IMG/VR virus record: IMGVR_UViG_3300037507_002193
Span: 1-29,973 of that record
Strand: one strand, 5' to 3'
From: a virus
Length of the DNA stretch: 29,973 nt
A model generated the notes under the pieces. That model saw nothing but the letters and a program-made list of their open reading frames with translations, ran no database searches and was not told where the DNA came from. The position numbers were made by a program, and so were the translations under genes. The number at the start of each line of letters is the position of its first letter. Position 1 is the first letter of the stretch. Positions 3,223-9,665 of the stretch are shown one piece after another.

Positions 3223-3476
3223 GGCGAGGAGGGGAATGGAGAGGCACGGATGGGATTGGAGCGAAGCCGAATGGCCAGGATTGGCTGGCACCTAGGCGGG
3301 ATCGGTTAGGTATGGACAGCAATGGCTCGGTGAGCATGGGAACGGCGGGGAGTGGCAGGATAGGAACGCACTGGTAAGGATTGCAAGGGAGAGGAGAGGC
3401 AGGCGTGGATGGGTAGGGCACGGATAGGACGAGACCGGATAGGCAGGCGCGGTTAGGCTGGGCCTGGCAGGGATTG
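3223..3476 (+). repeat. phased GGNNN pentamer array 1
   Basis: About 255 bp with GG recurring every 5 bases: GG starts at 3223, 3228, 3233, 3238, 3243, 3248, 3253 and 3258, then 3273, 3278, 3283. It continues with rare one-base slips (3304 register, 3363 register, 3402 register, 3451 register) to 3471. The three bases between GG pairs vary freely, so this is a rhythm rather than a sequence repeat. It is purine-rich on the plus strand and holds no credible gene. The next gene's ribosome binding site lies just beyond it. Confidence 0.9.
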
Positions 3477-3501
3477 CAAAAGATTAGAGAGGCAGAAGCA
3501 C

Positions 3502-4215
3502 ATGCAAAAGGCAGTAGAGAAGGTAATGCCGGAAAAGCAGAACAAGATCACCGCGATTAGCGCACCGCGCTTCGCCATGCTGAAGGTGCCAATCAAGAAT
3601 GCGCCCGGTGCGCCGCTGGTAATCCACGCATTCAGCGCCAAATCGCGGCAGATCATGCGCGAGGCTCAGGAGGCGGGCTCGGTCGGCAAAAAGAAGAAGC
3701 AGCGCGACCCGAAGGATTTTGACGCGGTGTATCAGGGCGCGCGGTACATCAGCCGAGACGGATGGGACGGCGCGAGCGCCGCGACCTTCCGAAACGCGAT
3801 GATCTCAGCATGCCGGCTTGTCGGCTTCAAGATGACCATCGGGAAGATGTCGGTATTTATCGAGGCGGACGGCGTGAGCGCGACCGATGGCACACCGCTT
3901 GTGCGCATCCACGGCGAGCCGCAGCCTTTCGAGGCGACGGTAAGAAATCAAACGGGTGTCACTGATATCCGCGTGCGCCCGCGCTGGGATGAGTGGAGTG
4001 CCAATCTGCGCATTCGCTACGACCGCGAGCAGTTCAGCGACGAGGACGTGGTCAATCTACTCGTTCGGGCCGGCTCTCAGGTTGGCATCGGCGAAGGGCG
4101 GCCCGATAGCAAGATGTCATTCGGCATGGGCTGGGGTTTGTTCGAGATCGACATAGAAAAGGGCATTGAGTTGACGGAAATTCCAGCGCCTAAGATCGAG
4201 TTTATCCGTAGGTAG
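3502..4215 (+). CDS. conserved phage protein of unknown function
   Basis: 237 aa, flanked on both sides by the pentamer arrays. It starts after AGAGAGG. The N-terminal half includes AMLKVPIKNAPGAPLVIHAF and a lysine patch (GKKKKQR). The C-terminal half (WSANLRIRYDREQFSDEDVV, AGSQVGIGEGRPDSKMSFGM, GWGLFEI) matches a signature I associate with phage early-region hypotheticals: a strand pair, a helix and a G-x-G-E-x-R-P loop followed by a G/W/F motif. No function is assigned. Its repeated-array context suggests it may act on, or move with, the arrays. Confidence 0.8.
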   Translation: MQKAVEKVMPEKQNKITAISAPRFAMLKVPIKNAPGAPLVIHAFSAKSRQIMREAQEAGSVGKKKKQRDPKDFDAVYQGARYISRDGWDGASAATFRNAMISACRLVGFKMTIGKMSVFIEADGVSATDGTPLVRIHGEPQPFEATVRNQTGVTDIRVRPRWDEWSANLRIRYDREQFSDEDVVNLLVRAGSQVGIGEGRPDSKMSFGMGWGLFEIDIEKGIELTEIPAPKIEFIRR

Positions 4216-4547
4216 GGATGGGTGTGGACAGGCGGGGATTGGATCGCAGGTAAGGATCGGATCGGCATGGAAGGGCATGGCGCGGATCGGCAGGAAGGGA
4301 CGGGAAGGGCAAGGCCCGGCGTGGATCGGAGGGGAATAGCAGTCGCGGACAGGATGGGCGGCGCTCGCAAGGGCGCGGATCGCAACGGCTTGGCGAGGAA
4401 AGGCAGGAAGGGCCAGGCACGGCCAGGTATGCAGGGGACTGGCGGGGATCGGCAGGATAGGAGCGGATCGGCAGGGAACGGATAGGAGGGGATCGGCAGG
4501 AACGGCTAGGCGCGCAAAGGTAGGATCGGACGGGACAGGAAAGGCAC
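4211..4547 (+). repeat. phased GGNNN pentamer array 2
   Basis: About 335 bp with the same 5-base rhythm, beginning in the last codons of the preceding gene: GG starts at 4211, 4216, 4221, 4226, 4231, 4236 and 4241, then 4254, 4259, 4264, 4269, 4274, 4279, 4284, 4289, and so on to about 4543. GGATC is the commonest unit. Long frames through it on either strand are low-complexity by-products. Its last units (GGAAAGG) supply the ribosome binding site of the gene at 4554. Confidence 0.9.
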
Positions 4548-4553
4548 GACATT

Positions 4554-5015
4554 ATGACCAAAAAGTCTGAGCTAGACAAGATCATCAAGGACGCTGGCGG
4601 ACCTATCACGGCTGAGCAAGTCGTGCAGGCGGCCCGCAACAAGTCGGAGTTTCCAGCGCTTCACCAACATCTGTGGGAGGTGCCGGAGCGCGAGCTTGCG
4701 AACGAGGCACGGCTTGCGCGCGCACACAAGCTTATCATCGCGCTTCGCGTCGTGTCCGCGTCGGGCTCGATCACGCGCATGATGGTGCACACATTGGGCA
4801 CCAAGGGCTATCAGCCTGCGGAGCACGTGGCGGCCAACATCGACCTTGCCTCGATCAAGCTCAAGCAACTCTCTGCCGACGTAGGCCGAGCACGGGAGCG
4901 GCTTCGAGGGTTTCGATCGATGATCGCGGACGACCTGTCTGACGAGATCGACGAGGCATTGGAGCGCGCCACGTCGGCTATCGACCGGGCGACGGCTAGG
5001 GATGCAGCTGCATGA
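4554..5015 (+). CDS. hypothetical phage early protein
   Basis: 153 aa. The N-terminal third (ITAEQVVQAARNKSEFPALH, then QHLWEVPERELANEARLARAHKLI) resembles a widespread phage early-gene domain with the pattern T-A-E-x-V-V-x-A-A-R ... L-H-x-x-L/F-x-W. The C-terminal half is a long helix with alternating charges (RARERLRGFRSMIADDLSDE). ATG 4554 uses AAAGG from the end of array 2 (gap 9). It is coupled to the HNH gene by ATGA. Function unknown. Confidence 0.75.
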   Translation: MTKKSELDKIIKDAGGPITAEQVVQAARNKSEFPALHQHLWEVPERELANEARLARAHKLIIALRVVSASGSITRMMVHTLGTKGYQPAEHVAANIDLASIKLKQLSADVGRARERLRGFRSMIADDLSDEIDEALERATSAIDRATARDAAA

Positions 5016-5362
5016 CCGGCTCGAGCTTCACCCACGCCCCGCGCGGCAGCATGAGCCCTCAGCGCGCTCTTCGGATATTCCAGTCCAGGGGAGGCGTGTG
5101 TTACTGCCCGGCCAATGACATTGACCGCGAACACTACGGGTGCAAGCGCAAGCTGACGCCAGCAGATAAATGGCGGGTCGAGCACGGCATTGCGCTCGAA
5201 AACGGCGGCACTGACGATGATTCCGGGCTCTACATTCTTTGCGAATGGTGCTGGCCCGAAAAGGACGGCGACGACCATTCGCAAGCTGGTCATGGGCGGA
5301 GAATGGCCGTGCGCGTTTTCGTTCCGAAAGAATATCGGACGAAGCGAGGCTTCCGATACTGA
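5012..5362 (+). CDS. HNH-type endonuclease-like protein
   Basis: 116 aa. Residues about 18-90 follow the HNH plan: RALRIFQSRGGVCYC then a second Cys (YGCKRKL), the metal-binding EHGIALENGGTDDDSGLYIL with E-H, then CEWCWPEK and a distal D-H/H-G-H. Phage HNH proteins of this size nick or cut DNA in packaging or recombination. The usual third-helix Asn/His is replaced in part (SGLYILCEWC), so activity is not certain. ATG 5012 overlaps the previous stop. Last gene of the rightward operon, converging on the minus-strand gene at 5365 with only 2 nt between. Confidence 0.75.
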   Translation: MTGSSFTHAPRGSMSPQRALRIFQSRGGVCYCPANDIDREHYGCKRKLTPADKWRVEHGIALENGGTDDDSGLYILCEWCWPEKDGDDHSQAGHGRRMAVRVFVPKEYRTKRGFRY

Positions 5363-5364
5363 TC

Positions 5365-5586
5365 CTATTCCGTTTCCAGTTCGCGGGCCGTTTTCTCATC
5401 GCCGATGTTGCGCGCCAGCTCGGCCATGCTCTCGTTTACCCGCGTCATGCGCTCGACGTTGCATGTGTAGCACCACGCACCCCAGGACGACTTAGTACAC
5501 CGCTTGCGGCAGCCGCGACACGTGTACGTGAGCCGGCCGCAATAGCTCGGGTGATCGGCGTCTCGCCACGTCCGGTGTTTTGGCAT
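5365..5586 (-). CDS. small zinc-finger-like protein
   Basis: 73 aa. It carries two paired cysteine motifs (TCRGCRKRC and WCYTC) in a basic, aromatic N-terminal half, and an acidic helical C-terminus (MTRVNESMAELARNIGDEKT). A four-Cys zinc knuckle is likely; the function is unknown. ATG 5586 has a strong AAGGAG site 6 nt upstream. It lies downstream of the gene at 5599 in the same direction. Confidence 0.75.
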   Translation of the reverse strand: MPKHRTWRDADHPSYCGRLTYTCRGCRKRCTKSSWGAWCYTCNVERMTRVNESMAELARNIGDEKTARELETE

Positions 5587-5598
5587 CCCAATCTCCTT

Positions 5599-5844
5599 CT
5601 ACTTTTTCCTAGTTGCTATCCGCAGCTCGTTCACTGCGTCGATGAGTTGCCGGTGAGCGCGCTCAACAGACGCGATCGTAGTTTCAAGATCATTGATGAC
5701 CGACACCTCCTGCCCACGCTGCCACGCAAGTGCGCGGGCGACCTGAGCCGAGCAAGCGGCGATGTTGCCCGCAGCAGTCGCGACTAGGTGGCGCGCGTCG
5801 AGAATGTCGCCGGTCCTGTCCTCGGCTATGTCGGCTTCAGCCAC
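5599..5844 (-). CDS. hypothetical helical protein, probably 5'-truncated
   Basis: 81 aa from GTG 5844. Helical throughout (ARHLVATAAGNIAACSAQVA, LETTIASVERAHRQLIDAVN). No ribosome binding site precedes the GTG, and the frame stays open upstream across 5845-5869 into the inverted-repeat end of the transposon at 5870. This suggests the native start was lost when the element inserted, or that adjacent DNA was deleted. The frame is coherent with the 73-aa gene downstream. Confidence 0.5.
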   Translation of the reverse strand: MAEADIAEDRTGDILDARHLVATAAGNIAACSAQVARALAWQRGQEVSVINDLETTIASVERAHRQLIDAVNELRIATRKK

Positions 5845-5869: not shown

Positions 5870-5888
5870 GGTAGTGTCTCAGTTTGAA
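5870..5888 (+). repeat. left terminal inverted repeat
   Basis: GGTAGTGTCTCAGTTTGAA, an exact inverted copy of 9524-9542. Similarity continues inward (TTTATGATAG against ATTTGATCGC) with mismatches. Confidence 0.85.
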
Positions 5889-5889
5889 T

Positions 5890-6297
5890 TTATGATAGTC
5901 GCTTCTTCAGGTGCCCCGATACAACTCCAACAATAATTCCACCGGTCAAGAAGCTTTGCAGTTTTGTCTGTTGCTCGGACTTCAGAAAATGCCATGTGTC
6001 GGGCGCAATCAAATGCCAAATCCACGTCCCAGCAGCCAGCAGCAGAGCGAATGCTGCGAGCCAGAGGTAGATCAGAGATATCGTTTCGAAGTGGTCTTTG
6101 AAAGTTTGCGATCTATCGTGGTCTTTCTGCTCGGCTTCTTTCTTCAACTCTCGCGCAGTCTTGCCACGCGAGAGTTGAACTGCTTCTTGAGTTCCAGAAT
6201 CACTTGCCTCTGCTAACGCTGGATCAAGGATCTTGTCATCCTCGGCGGTTGGCCCAGGAACTACAATCTGTCTAGGTTCAGCGCCGTCTACACTCAT
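5890..6297 (-). CDS. two-helix membrane protein, candidate PanT toxin
   Basis: 135 aa. Residues 1-70 are soluble and charged. TM1 is at about 73-97 (SLIYLWLAAFALLLAAGTWI), then an amphipathic loop, then a shorter hydrophobic stretch at 114-130 (FLTGGIIVGVVSG) and a basic end KKRLS. The ATG overlaps the stop of the Panacea gene (ATGA), the standard layout of a PanAT pair with antitoxin first. PanA-type antitoxins are known to neutralise unrelated toxins, including membrane-acting ones. Toxicity is inference. The gene reaches almost to the left repeat, so it is the last cargo gene. Confidence 0.7.
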   Translation of the reverse strand: MSVDGAEPRQIVVPGPTAEDDKILDPALAEASDSGTQEAVQLSRGKTARELKKEAEQKDHDRSQTFKDHFETISLIYLWLAAFALLLAAGTWIWHLIAPDTWHFLKSEQQTKLQSFLTGGIIVGVVSGHLKKRLS

Positions 6298-6764
6298 GGC
6301 TGACGGCCGCTCCTAGCGGTCGCCATGCGCGCATAGTGATCTTCGATAACGTCGTTGGGTATCACCACTCCGAACAATCCCGGCCGATAAGTAATATCCC
6401 AAGGCGATCCAGGAAGATGCGTCAGTCTTGAGAGTGCTGGGCCAGAGTGTGCCCCATACTTGTCGTACACTTGGTCTACTATGCTTGCCTCAGAAGCGGC
6501 GAGATGCTCGTTCGCATCCGCTCCCCTCAATGGCCCTTCCACAGGATTGCTCTTGAAGTGACGCATCGCACCATAAAGCCTAGGAATAACAGGACCGTAT
6601 TCCCATGCCTGCACTTCGTCTTTGATGAGCGGACGACCGAGCAAGCCGAGTGTCCATCCGTGCGCAATGTAGACAAGCTTAAGGACCTGCATCGGGGTGA
6701 GGGCATCGTTGTTCGCCCGTGCCCGATCGAGAAGGTGGTTAGCGACTATGATGCTGTCGTACAT
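6294..6764 (-). CDS. panA: Panacea-domain antitoxin (SocA/GepA, DUF4065 type)
   Basis: 156 aa. The family core is residues about 5-70: IIVANHLLDRARANNDALTP, MQVLKLVYIAHGWTLGLLGR, then VQAWEYGPVIPRLYGAMRHF with the diagnostic L-x-K-L-V/L-Y-x-A-H-G and W-x-x-G-P-V/I-x-P motifs. Panacea proteins act as antitoxins for many unrelated toxins and are common in phages and mobile elements. ATG 6764 has a strong AAGGAGG site 8 nt upstream. The 4-nt overlap with the downstream membrane-protein gene couples them. The role as an antitoxin for that gene is inferred from context. Confidence 0.88.
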   Translation of the reverse strand: MYDSIIVANHLLDRARANNDALTPMQVLKLVYIAHGWTLGLLGRPLIKDEVQAWEYGPVIPRLYGAMRHFKSNPVEGPLRGADANEHLAASEASIVDQVYDKYGAHSGPALSRLTHLPGSPWDITYRPGLFGVVIPNDVIEDHYARMATARSGRQP

Positions 6765-6842
6765 CGTGCCTGCCTCCTTCCTGCATAGTTACAACCGCTC
6801 AACACAAATTGGCCGGCACCGATACCGGAACCAGCCTCCCAT

Positions 6843-6871
6843 TATATATGTTCTTTTTTGGTTCCGATCAA
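6843..6871 (-). promoter_or_regulatory. promoter of the PanA/toxin pair
   Basis: On the minus strand TTGATC (6871-6866), 17-nt spacer, TATATA (6848-6843). A perfect TATAAT overlaps at 6846-6841 with a 19-nt spacer. The leader to ATG 6764 is about 70 nt and contains a CCGG-flanked partial palindrome (GGTTCCGGTATCGGTGCCGG) that could be an autoregulatory site. The local sequence is AT-rich against its neighbours. Confidence 0.6.
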
Positions 6872-6884
6872 GCCCCTTCGCGGC

Positions 6885-7760
6885 TTACATCCTCTTCTTG
6901 TAATTCTTTGGCCGGTTCGGCTTGTCGGCCGCCGCATCGATCAGGGCCACGATGTCTTCCATCGACATGAGATTGTCAGTCAGGCCAGCGGCCATCGCAG
7001 GCGTCACCTTCAGCGTCTTGTGGATGCGCACCCAGTTGTAGAACACGAAATAGAGCGAGATCGCGTAGATGTGGCTCTCCAGCTTCTTGGAGAAGCCGTT
7101 CGTCAGTCGCGTGAACCGCCGCATGCTCATGCGCATCGTCAGGTTCTGCCGCTCAACGAATGACGTGCTGATGTGCTTCGGGTCCGGCTTGCCCTCGATC
7201 TCCGTCTTGCTGATGCCGGTGCACTCGGCCGGGCTATAACGGCCCTTGGCACTCTCCGGGCTGGCGCCGTAGAGCTTCACGAGCTGGGCATAGTCCACGT
7301 CCGCGCCAAACGCGCCCTCGACCGCTTCGAGGTACGCCTTGAGGCCATCGCTGGTGAGTTGCACGCGGGTTGCCAGCCGTTCGGCAAGGCCGTTGATGAA
7401 GTAGCCAGCCGTCTCGCCGTCGCGGTCACCCACGTACCATTGCACGATCAGCTTGCTGTCGGCATCGATCGCGGTCCAGGTCCACGTGTCGCCAGCGCCC
7501 TCGACGGGCTTCTTCATGCTGGGCACGTTCTTCTGCTTGGCGGCCGTGAACGACCAGATTTCATCGACCTGCACCCGCTTGGCCTTCACGCCAACGACGT
7601 TCTCGTCATGGAAAGTCATGCAAACCTTGCCTGCATCCTCCAGCAGCTTGGCGACCGTGTTGATCGACACGTCGCACACACGGGAGATCGACCGCATGGA
7701 CGATCCCTCGCAGAGCATCGAGAGGATTTGGACGCGGGTCTTGGTGGGGAGCTTGTTCAT
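6885..7760 (-). CDS. IS1-family-like DDE transposase
   Basis: 291 aa. An N-terminal HTH (about 12-43, [20 protein letters not shown]) is followed by a DDE core: D66 in [10 protein letters not shown]138 in [10 protein letters not shown] and E203 in [17 protein letters not shown]. The end ([20 protein letters not shown]) matches the IS1-type C-terminus. ATG 7760 has AAGGGAG 3-4 nt upstream, and its promoter at 7767-7795 predicts a start at the ATG. This is a single-ORF transposase without the frameshift of classical IS1. Catalytic residues are intact, so activity is plausible. The upstream extension of the frame has no codon support. Confidence 0.9.
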
Positions 7761-7766
7761 GGCTCC

Positions 7767-7795
7767 CTTATATGAACTTTTATGCTTAGCGTCAA
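7767..7795 (-). promoter_or_regulatory. transposase promoter, predicted leaderless
   Basis: TTGACG (7795-7790), 17-nt spacer, TATAAG (7772-7767). Only 6 nt separate the -10 box from ATG 7760, so transcription should begin at or within the start codon. The -35 box lies inside the TGCTT-N6-AAGCA site at 7783-7798. Confidence 0.65.
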
Positions 7796-7798
7796 GCA
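7783..7798. promoter_or_regulatory. operator-like site over the transposase -35
   Basis: TGCTTAGCGTCAAGCA, an inverted TGCTT/AAGCA pair with a 6-nt centre. It resembles the octamers at 7820-7871 and covers the transposase -35 box, suggesting the same regulator could act on both divergent promoters. Confidence 0.5.
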
Positions 7799-7819
7799 CA
7801 CGTGCCTCCATCGCCCAAT

Positions 7820-7871
7820 GCTTGCACGAATCATTATGCAAGCATATGCTTGCATTTCCCAGTTGCAAGCA
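7820..7871. promoter_or_regulatory. symmetric four-octamer operator array
   Basis: TGCTTGCA (7820-7827), 9 nt, TGCAAGCA (7837-7844), 2 nt, TGCTTGCA (7847-7854), 9 nt, TGCAAGCA (7864-7871): all four are symmetric about 7845.5. The inner pair makes a perfect 20-bp palindrome (ATGCAAGCATATGCTTGCAT, 7836-7855). The array covers the -35, spacer and -10 of the P63C-gene promoter and the start of its leader. Confidence 0.8.
7822..7850 (+). promoter_or_regulatory. promoter of the P63C-domain gene
   Basis: TTGCAC (7822-7827), 17-nt spacer, TATGCT (7845-7850). The elements are moderate and fully embedded in the operator array. The predicted start is at about 7857, leaving a leader of about 26 nt. Confidence 0.55.
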
Positions 7872-7882
7872 CAGAGGTCGAG

Positions 7883-8884
7883 ATGACAGGCAAAGATGAA
7901 AGCAAGGCCGCAGGGGGGCTTGCTCGCGCTGAGGCCCTATCGCCTGAACGCAGGAAAGAAATTGCCCAGAAGGCAGCGGCATCGAGATGGTTGGCCGATC
8001 TGCCGCAAGCTACCCACGTTGGAAACATCAAGGTTGGGCAGGCTGAAATCTCATGCGCAGTGCTCGAAGACGGTCGGCGCGTGCTCACTCAGAGTGACAT
8101 GATGCGTGCTCTTGGTAGGGCGCGACAAGCCAAGGGGCGCGCGTACTACAGTGGTGACGTCAACTTGCCTGCGTTTCTCACCGCAAACAACCTTAAACCG
8201 TTTATTCCCAAAGAGTTAGAGGTGACGTCGAGTCAAATTGAATTCAAGCTGCCATCCGGGCAAAAGGCGTTTGGATATCTGGCCGAATTGCTGCCGGAGG
8301 TCTGCGAGGTCTATATTAAGGCGCGTAAAGAAGGCGCACTGGCCGCCAATCAAGAGCACGTTGCCGACCAGTGTGAGATACTTATAAGAGGGTTGGCCAA
8401 GCTTGGCATCGTCGGGCTCGTTGATGAGGCCACGGGCTATCAGTATGTTCGCGACAAACAAGCGCTGCAAAGCATGCTTGATGCCTACTTGCGGCATGAG
8501 CTTGCGGCCTGGGCAAAGCGGTTCCCAGACGAATTCTATCGACAGATATTCCGGCTCCGAGGGTGGGAGTGGAAAGGCATGAAGGTCAATCGGCCACAGA
8601 TTGTAGCCCACTATACCAAGGATCTAGTGTACGAGCGCCTTGCGCCAGGCATTCTTACAGAACTCGAGAACCGCGTTCCGCGAGACGAGGACGGAAAGAA
8701 GAAAGGCAAGCTTCATCAGCTATTTACAGATGACGTCGGGCATCCCGCTCTAGCCCAGCATTTACATGCTGTAACGATGATGATGAAGGGGTCTCCGAGT
8801 TGGGACGCGTTCATCACAATGATGAACATCGCCTTGCCGAAGCGCGGCGCCAATCTAGAATTGGATCTGCGAGCGAAGGATTAG
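7883..8884 (+). CDS. P63C-domain protein
   Basis: 333 aa. Near the N-terminus is a basic motif (11-36: [20 protein letters not shown], then AAASRW). A middle region (about 50-200) is mixed alpha/beta. Residues about 225-320 are the P63C domain: [61 protein letters not shown]63C proteins are found on phages and other mobile DNA, with no settled biochemical role. ATG 7883 has GAGG 5 nt upstream; earlier starts would lie inside the promoter. The palindromic array over its promoter suggests strong, perhaps self, regulation. Its stop overlaps the convergent gene by 4 nt. Confidence 0.85.
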
Positions 8885-9114
8885 CGGCTATTCCATCTAG
8901 TCTTTGCTGCAGCCTTCGCGATTTCTGATCGCCTTTTCGCGCTCATCTTCTCTGCTCGCGCCTTACCTCCACGCCGCCCAAGGCTGACGGCCGCCTTGTC
9001 CTTGCCGTCGTCGGTCTTCTCGTCTTCTTCCTCGCCAGTGGCGATCTTCGCCACCTTGATGGCGTTGCCGATCACGTCGGCTGGGCGCTTCTCGCCCTTT
9101 GGGCCTTTAGGCAT
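8881..9114 (-). CDS. small basic protein sharing a GG..RW motif with the P63C protein
   Basis: 77 aa from ATG 9114, 4 nt after the previous stop. Its C-terminal 26 residues (GGKARAEKMSAKRRSEIAKA, AAKTRW) match the P63C protein's N-terminal motif at 16 of 26 positions with equal spacing. The N-terminus is lysine- and proline-rich (MPKGPKGEKRPAD) and the centre acidic. It may bind nucleic acid or compete with the P63C protein for a partner; both are speculation. Weak ribosome binding site, so translation is likely coupled. Confidence 0.65.
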   Translation of the reverse strand: MPKGPKGEKRPADVIGNAIKVAKIATGEEEDEKTDDGKDKAAVSLGRRGGKARAEKMSAKRRSEIAKAAAKTRWNSR

Positions 9115-9118
9115 GTCG

Positions 9119-9448
9119 TTATTTTCTTTCGCCAGACACGTGCTCGCCAGTCGTCGTGACATGTGTCACCAGATGCTCTGTGAGGTCCTGCCAAGCCTCA
9201 TCAACGATCGAATGTAGGCGACGACCTGCGGCGGCACTGTTCCATTCAACGGTAAGCCATCCCTTGTGATCGTGCATGCTGGCGATGCCGCTCGAAAACT
9301 CGTCCACTAGCTTTCGCGAGTCCGCCAGCGCCAACGCCTTTTGGTAGCATTCCAAAACGCGATCGAGGCGATGGGTCTCTCGATGACATCCAATCCTGAT
9401 CCAAGTGTCACTGGATCGGTCCAAGCTCTTGGGCTCAATTTGCGCCAC
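9119..9448 (-). CDS. hypothetical cargo protein
   Basis: 109 aa from GTG 9448 with GGAG 8 nt upstream (an ATG at 9455 is out of frame). Sequence features: helices (THRLDRVLECYQKALALADS) and a possible beta section (DHKGWLTVEWNSAAAGRRLH). No family recognised. It precedes the basic 77-aa gene in one transcription unit and lies next to the right end of the transposon. A TTGACA at 9511-9506 close to the repeat may be its -35, but no good -10 box follows. Confidence 0.6.
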   Translation of the reverse strand: MAQIEPKSLDRSSDTWIRIGCHRETHRLDRVLECYQKALALADSRKLVDEFSSGIASMHDHKGWLTVEWNSAAAGRRLHSIVDEAWQDLTEHLVTHVTTTGEHVSGERK

Positions 9449-9523
9449 GGTTCATACTCCTGCTTTGCGCTAAGCATAGCATGAGTTGGGAGCCGCCAAC
9501 ACCCCTGTCAACTGCGATCAAAT

Positions 9524-9542
9524 TTCAAACTGAGACACTACC
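9524..9542 (-). repeat. right terminal inverted repeat
   Basis: TTCAAACTGAGACACTACC, the exact reverse complement of 5870-5888. A TGA inside it (9531-9533) closes the frame of the adjacent gene fragment. Confidence 0.85.
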
Positions 9543-9665
9543 CCAGCCGAGCTATTCGCCCTCTACACGATGGGCGAGAAGGAAGGCGCTGGCCTCACGA
9601 AGCGGGTCGACAAACGCTACTACGACTGCATGCAGGACGAGCCAGAAGACGTTGACGCAGACTAA
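9543..9665 (+). pseudogene. 3' fragment of a disrupted plus-strand gene
   Basis: Directly beyond the right repeat a frame reads AELFALYTMGEKEGAGLTKR, then VDKRYYDCMQDEPEDVDAD and TAA 9663-9665. Composition and an acidic tail look like a real C-terminus. The frame is stopped inside the repeat, so the 5' part has been lost; it is not found left of the element. This supports insertion with loss of flanking DNA. The original product is not recognised. A 31-aa ORF from the internal ATG is the only possible remnant. Confidence 0.5.

Follow-up and report, generated by a model that had tools for sequence, protein, structure and literature searches.

What accounts for the GG dinucleotides that recur every five bases over ~250 bp of this viral genome? 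The window analysed is the whole of IMG/VR virus record IMGVR_UViG_3300037507_002193 (29,973 bases). A sequence-only reading had placed this rhythm at 3223–3476, suggested that selection acts on spacing rather than on sequence, and proposed as possible roles a protein-binding ladder on alternating helical faces, a recombination substrate, a packaging or replication signal, or a G-rich RNA. The rhythm is real: the region contains 56 GG steps with 32 GG pairs at lag 5 (z=6.8), where 1000 dinucleotide shuffles give 11.8±3.0 and never more than 20, and in the autocorrelation lags 10 and 15 are also elevated and lags 2–3, 7–8 and 12–13 depressed. A larger twin at 4211–4548 gives a stronger signal (51 pairs at lag 5 vs. 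19.4±3.7 in dinucleotide shuffles; z=8.6). The pattern was to be abandoned if its period-5 signal did not exceed that of shuffled sequence; it is far higher in both arrays, and as the lag-5 count at 3223–3476 exceeds every one of the 1000 shuffles, this test fails to refute it. The proposed coordinates are correct apart from a tail reaching to about 3494, and the two arrays (3223–3494 and 4211–4548) flank an open reading frame at 3502–4215.

Both arrays lie on the plus strand and are built from units containing several pentamers. Autocorrelation, register segmentation, slip statistics and base composition divide array 1 (3223–3494) into about five tandem putative guide units, u1 (3223–3298), u2 (3299–3357), u3 (3358–3401), u4 (3402–3445) and u5 (3446–3494). 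Array 2 (4211–4548), parsed by autocorrelation, comparison with a relative and register segmentation, has about seven: v1 (4211–4248), v2 (4249–4292), v3 (4293–4341), v4 (4342–4405), v5 (4406–4454), v6 (4455–4498) and v7/v8 (4499–4548); the parse is less certain for u1, v1 and v7/v8. The window pentamer is GG[A/C/T]NN, with entropies at positions 1–5 of 0.33, 0.55, 1.29, 1.93 and 1.99 bits. The remark that bases other than GG vary thus holds for the nearly random bases 4 and 5 and fails for base 3, which is A or C, sometimes T, and never G (A 49, C 29, T 10, G 0; n=88 parsed pentamers; 0/88, p=1e-11). A occupies base 3 in 56% of window pentamers and in 5.7% of those in all other arrays pooled (Fisher p=5e-36, a nominal value because units within one array are not independent); the next-highest proportions are 38% in IMG/VR record IMGVR_UViG_3300020215_000089 (L003) and 28% in L011.

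The one-base slips described earlier are present and are not incidental, as most clean slips consist of the four nucleotides GGCA, after which the register changes. A six-state hidden Markov model likewise finds most slips to be fixed in form, with units of n × 5 + 4 nt closed by GGCA and mostly 44–64 nt long. By slip count, GGCA outnumbers every other 4-nt form in the window, as it does in most close relatives; CGCA takes its place in L065 and L046. We read each GGCA-closed unit as a single guide of about 8–12 pentamers. Inspection of the segmented arrays reveals no shared structured 3′ tail beyond GGCA. The arrays are taken to be non-coding because period 5 keeps no reading frame, and an 87-aa open reading frame over array 2 is judged spurious. 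An Rfam scan of the arrays found no element, including hammerhead or other known RNAs, and intrinsic terminators and sigma-70 promoters near them are not above chance. A separate Rfam tRNA match is located on the minus strand at 119–179, close to the left end of the record.

The gene between the arrays (vipr, 3502–4215, plus strand) is predicted from sequence and model to encode a RAMP-fold guide-RNA-binding protein of 237 aa with a G-loop, GIGEGRPDSKMSFGMGWG. A profile of 32 homologs, built with phage SUSP1 left out, has a single match up to E=1, namely PDB 36pp, 'SUSP1 Vipr protein', at E=6.6e-17; the single sequence matches SUSP1 Vipr with E=1.7e-4. Its SUSP1 homolog, ALH47069.1, adjoins that phage's own arrays. 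The Foldseek matches listed for the AlphaFold model (pLDDT 90) are entries for CRISPR effectors (Csm, Cmr and type VII) and belong to the Csm3/Cas7 kind. PADLOC gave no match for the family. All 32 members fall within PHROG 4652, annotated as 'unknown function', which can now be named as corresponding to Vipr. PHROG 4652 relatives are also present in mycobacteriophages (Saal and others) and Gordonia phages, and their loci (L125–L127) carry GG arrays.

VIPR systems were described in 2026 as mediating RNA-guided DNA binding with gapped pairing, and were proposed to predate CRISPR (PMC13142463). A system consists of a RAMP-like Vipr protein and vrRNAs of 9–16 YNNGG repeats with a fixed, structured 3′ tail; in the repeats a fixed GG(Y) alternates with a hypervariable NN, the part that base-pairs with DNA, the DNA being read with a 1-nt skip. 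Repression of competing mobile elements is reported, GGY 'or a related consensus' is permitted, and 'staggered arrays' are mentioned (PMC13142463). The window locus is assigned to VIPR because its protein family includes SUSP1 Vipr (PDB 36pp) and its predicted fold matches Csm3/Cas7 RAMP subunits. A small RAMP-fold protein is therefore present by both the PDB 36pp match and the AlphaFold/Foldseek comparison, and pentamers with conserved GG and hypervariable NN are present under the 'related consensus' that the preprint allows. The strict base-3 pyrimidine of characterised type II systems is absent, which is not family-defining since it is not required of all seven VIPR types. If GGCA is the boundary, each unit has about 8–12 pentamers, compared with the 9–16 repeats given there per vrRNA. 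We are very nearly certain of the reading in which the arrays are tandem vrRNA genes, 3502–4215 is Vipr, 4554–5015 is a probable accessory gene and at least one guide, u5, appears to be aimed at a transposon terminal inverted repeat.

The closest characterised system is the type II VIPR of Escherichia phage SUSP1 (PMC13142463; PDB 36pp), which is likewise phage-borne, with a homologous RAMP protein, GG-period-5 arrays on the vipr strand, hypervariable NN and a small adjoining gene, an accessory gene in SUSP1 and a candidate one here. The window differs in having A/C rather than T/C at base 3 (T-rich in SUSP1 as published) and in guides that follow one another directly, joined by the four nucleotides GGCA, whereas SUSP1 has separate vrRNAs of about 100 nt with a pseudoknotted tail. 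The accessory candidates differ as well: the plus-strand gene at 4554–5015, a candidate vap (VIPR accessory protein) whose family lies beside vipr in about 30 loci by profile search, is not recognisably vap1, and a profile search found no clear homology to it. The locus shows that the VIPR repeat code can be looser than GGY and that guides can be placed head to tail with a 4-nt junction. Part of this variant may already be known, as the preprint mentions a 'related consensus' and 'staggered arrays'.

Nearer relatives are L003 and cyanophage Cy-LDV1 (L124), whose Vipr proteins are about 51–55% identical to that of the window, whose arrays are also punctuated by GGCA, and which share the accessory family. 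Their arrays are placed differently with respect to vipr and vap, and base 3 is a mixture of A, C and T in L003 and C in Cy-LDV1. Because base 3 differs among Vipr relatives at about 50% identity, the scaffold rule seems, from these sequences, to change quickly. A relative with about 51–53% identical Vipr retains the same periodic array with diverged sequence. Comparison with related phages had been suggested for just this purpose, and the view that spacing rather than sequence is selected proves a good guess.

The likeness to class 1 CRISPR systems is confined to the Cas7/Csm3 backbone, with which the modelled Vipr shares its predicted fold, a glycine-rich loop and a probable role in lining the guide RNA; the window guide code, unlike that of class 1 systems, is gapped. 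The marks of class 1 CRISPR-Cas, identical repeats separated by unique spacers together with cas genes, were not found by Tandem Repeats Finder, PADLOC or Pfam. Tandem Repeats Finder gave no CRISPR-type array in the window, a weak test because the tool finds head-to-tail repeats, and there is no Cas-type Pfam match among the neighbouring reading frames tested.

An IMG/VR scan for ten GG at 5-nt steps, making no use of protein information, returned at least 120 stretches. Iterated profile searches identify a homolog of the 3502–4215 product in 81 of the 120 pattern-found loci listed, with the nearest array within 300 bp in 65 of these 81; the GG-period scan alone thus recovered at least 81 loci with the Vipr family, and a visual 'pentamer rhythm' becomes a finding method. 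Of the 107 arrays within 3 kb of vipr in the loci listed, 106 share its strand, as suits a transcript better than double-stranded DNA. The single array opposite its neighbouring vipr is in L009 (11461–11720). Thirty-nine loci of L004–L123 are without a detected Vipr homolog, some being simple sequence (for example L056 and L063) and some ended by contig ends; others of these may carry more distant Vipr types.

This strand coupling bears on the possibility that the arrays act as DNA, either as a ladder of GG steps that a protein binds on alternate faces of the helix or as a G-quadruplex-prone packaging or recombination signal. Five bases are about half a helical turn, G tracts are abundant, and a RecT and a weakly H-NS-like reading frame are neighbours, but a DNA ladder accounts neither for the shared strand of arrays and vipr nor for a base 3 from which G is excluded beside maximally variable bases 4 and 5, as a readout code needs, and the arrays travel in most of the listed loci with a RAMP-fold homolog of a known guide-RNA binder. 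We consider a DNA-level role highly improbable; the helical-face, recombination and packaging proposals find no support, and nothing in the analysis points to RecT or the H-NS-like protein as a partner. The interpretation offered from the sequence is thereby upheld in part, for its spacing and its G-rich RNA. An RNA with a protein ladder was well guessed, as was the suspected 3502 product, which by sequence is probably the Vipr-family partner.

A candidate target for one guide is present within the window. An IS1-type transposon of 3.67 kb with passenger genes (5870–9542) is flanked by 22-nt terminal inverted repeats (5870–5891 and 9521–9542; 95% complementary) and contains a leftwards-transcribed transposase gene (6885–7982) together with SocA/Panacea-like (6294–6764) and P63C-domain (7802–8884) reading frames. 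Relatives bounded by the same terminal repeat are carried on plasmids of Acidiphilium, Hoeflea and Mesorhizobium. These relatives have an 8-bp target duplication that is absent at the window copy, which may reflect a deletion next to it or a chimeric contig; the right flank of the window copy resembles the 3′ part of an interrupted reading frame.

The variable bases of u5 (GC TA TG CT AG TT AA TT GA) match a site on the right terminal repeat (9518–9543, minus strand) at 17 of 18 positions under the 1-nt skip rule, with eight consecutive dinucleotides, and the best match in the record with any other skip is 13. In the last three u5 pentamers the GG is lost and the NN bases matching the target are retained. 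When NN order was permuted across all guides in the record with at least eight dinucleotides, an equally good match arose in 4 of 12,000 trials (p about 3e-4). The match is equally good (17/18) in a Hoeflea plasmid relative of the transposon.

Could the same arrays be an RNA sponge or attenuator, in which a ring- or dimer-forming protein reads GG(A) every 5 nt and the variable bases have no targeting role? The array resembles the binding sites of TRAP, which are triplets spaced at a 5-nt pitch, and of CsrA, which recognises GGA, and base 3 of the window is A-rich. The partner, though, is RAMP-like and neither TRAP nor CsrA, the unit punctuation fits discrete guides, and u5, read with the published skip, matches a transposon end in its variable bases; together these points leave a sponge or attenuator with very little probability.

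It is harder to dismiss that the arrays are standard VIPR arrays and the transposon match is a coincidence, leaving no guide with an identified target. Only one of about 11 guides has a match, the transposon copy and u5 occupy the same record, and scans for the other guides gave nothing convincing. Exact-target scans of viral contigs with the cores of u1, v3, v4 and v5 gave no match, and all guides compared all-against-all with 1.9 Mb gave no family-wide excess for skip 1. The u2 core has a single exact match in viral contigs, over 10 consecutive dinucleotides in AT-rich phage L195 (2123–2148), where it keeps the frame of a 150-aa reading frame of unknown family, the skip falling on the wobble base; L195 is a doubtful target, being an unrelated kind of phage in which one such match can be chance. 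Against coincidence are the permutation value over all guides in the record, the appearance of the u5 match only with a 1-nt skip, and the nature of the site, a conserved mobile-element end of the sort reported as a VIPR target. Coincidence is accordingly unlikely, although the u5 match is a single event tested.

Under the VIPR reading, the plus-strand arrays would be transcribed together with vipr, and each GGCA, which is observed to shift the register for the next guide, may also be the point at which guides are processed. Vipr and array RNA would form a ribonucleoprotein in which, to judge from the RAMP fold and from what is published on SUSP1, monomers oligomerise one per pentamer, each holding GG(A/C) and presenting two variable bases. 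By the published rule the NN pairs would read target DNA as NNxNNx, and a bound target would be repressed or blocked. Vipr directed by u5 to the terminal inverted repeats is proposed to block the transposase site or to silence the element. Aiming a guide at a transposon end would agree with the reported repression of competing mobile elements and could keep transposase from binding, and the locus suggests transposons as a class of VIPR target. That VIPR also controls transposons, with u5 directed at IS1-type terminal repeats including the resident copy by a variant that reads GG(A/C) and uses GGCA as punctuation, is a tentative proposal to which we give slightly less than an even chance.

The full u5 code has three exact matches in genome contigs, one of them on a degenerate repeat of the transposon family in Bradyrhizobium. 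Its eight-dinucleotide core is present in 4 of 297 genomes from the order to which this Bradyrhizobium belongs, each time on a repeat of this kind; a permuted control is present in none. The genome matches identify the site as a conserved end of the transposon and do not count as independent proof of targeting. Bradyrhizobium sp. LTSP885 (L193) contains a ~470-bp element (about 5141–5610) whose degenerate ends belong to this transposon family, and its right end matches u5 at 18 of 18 positions.
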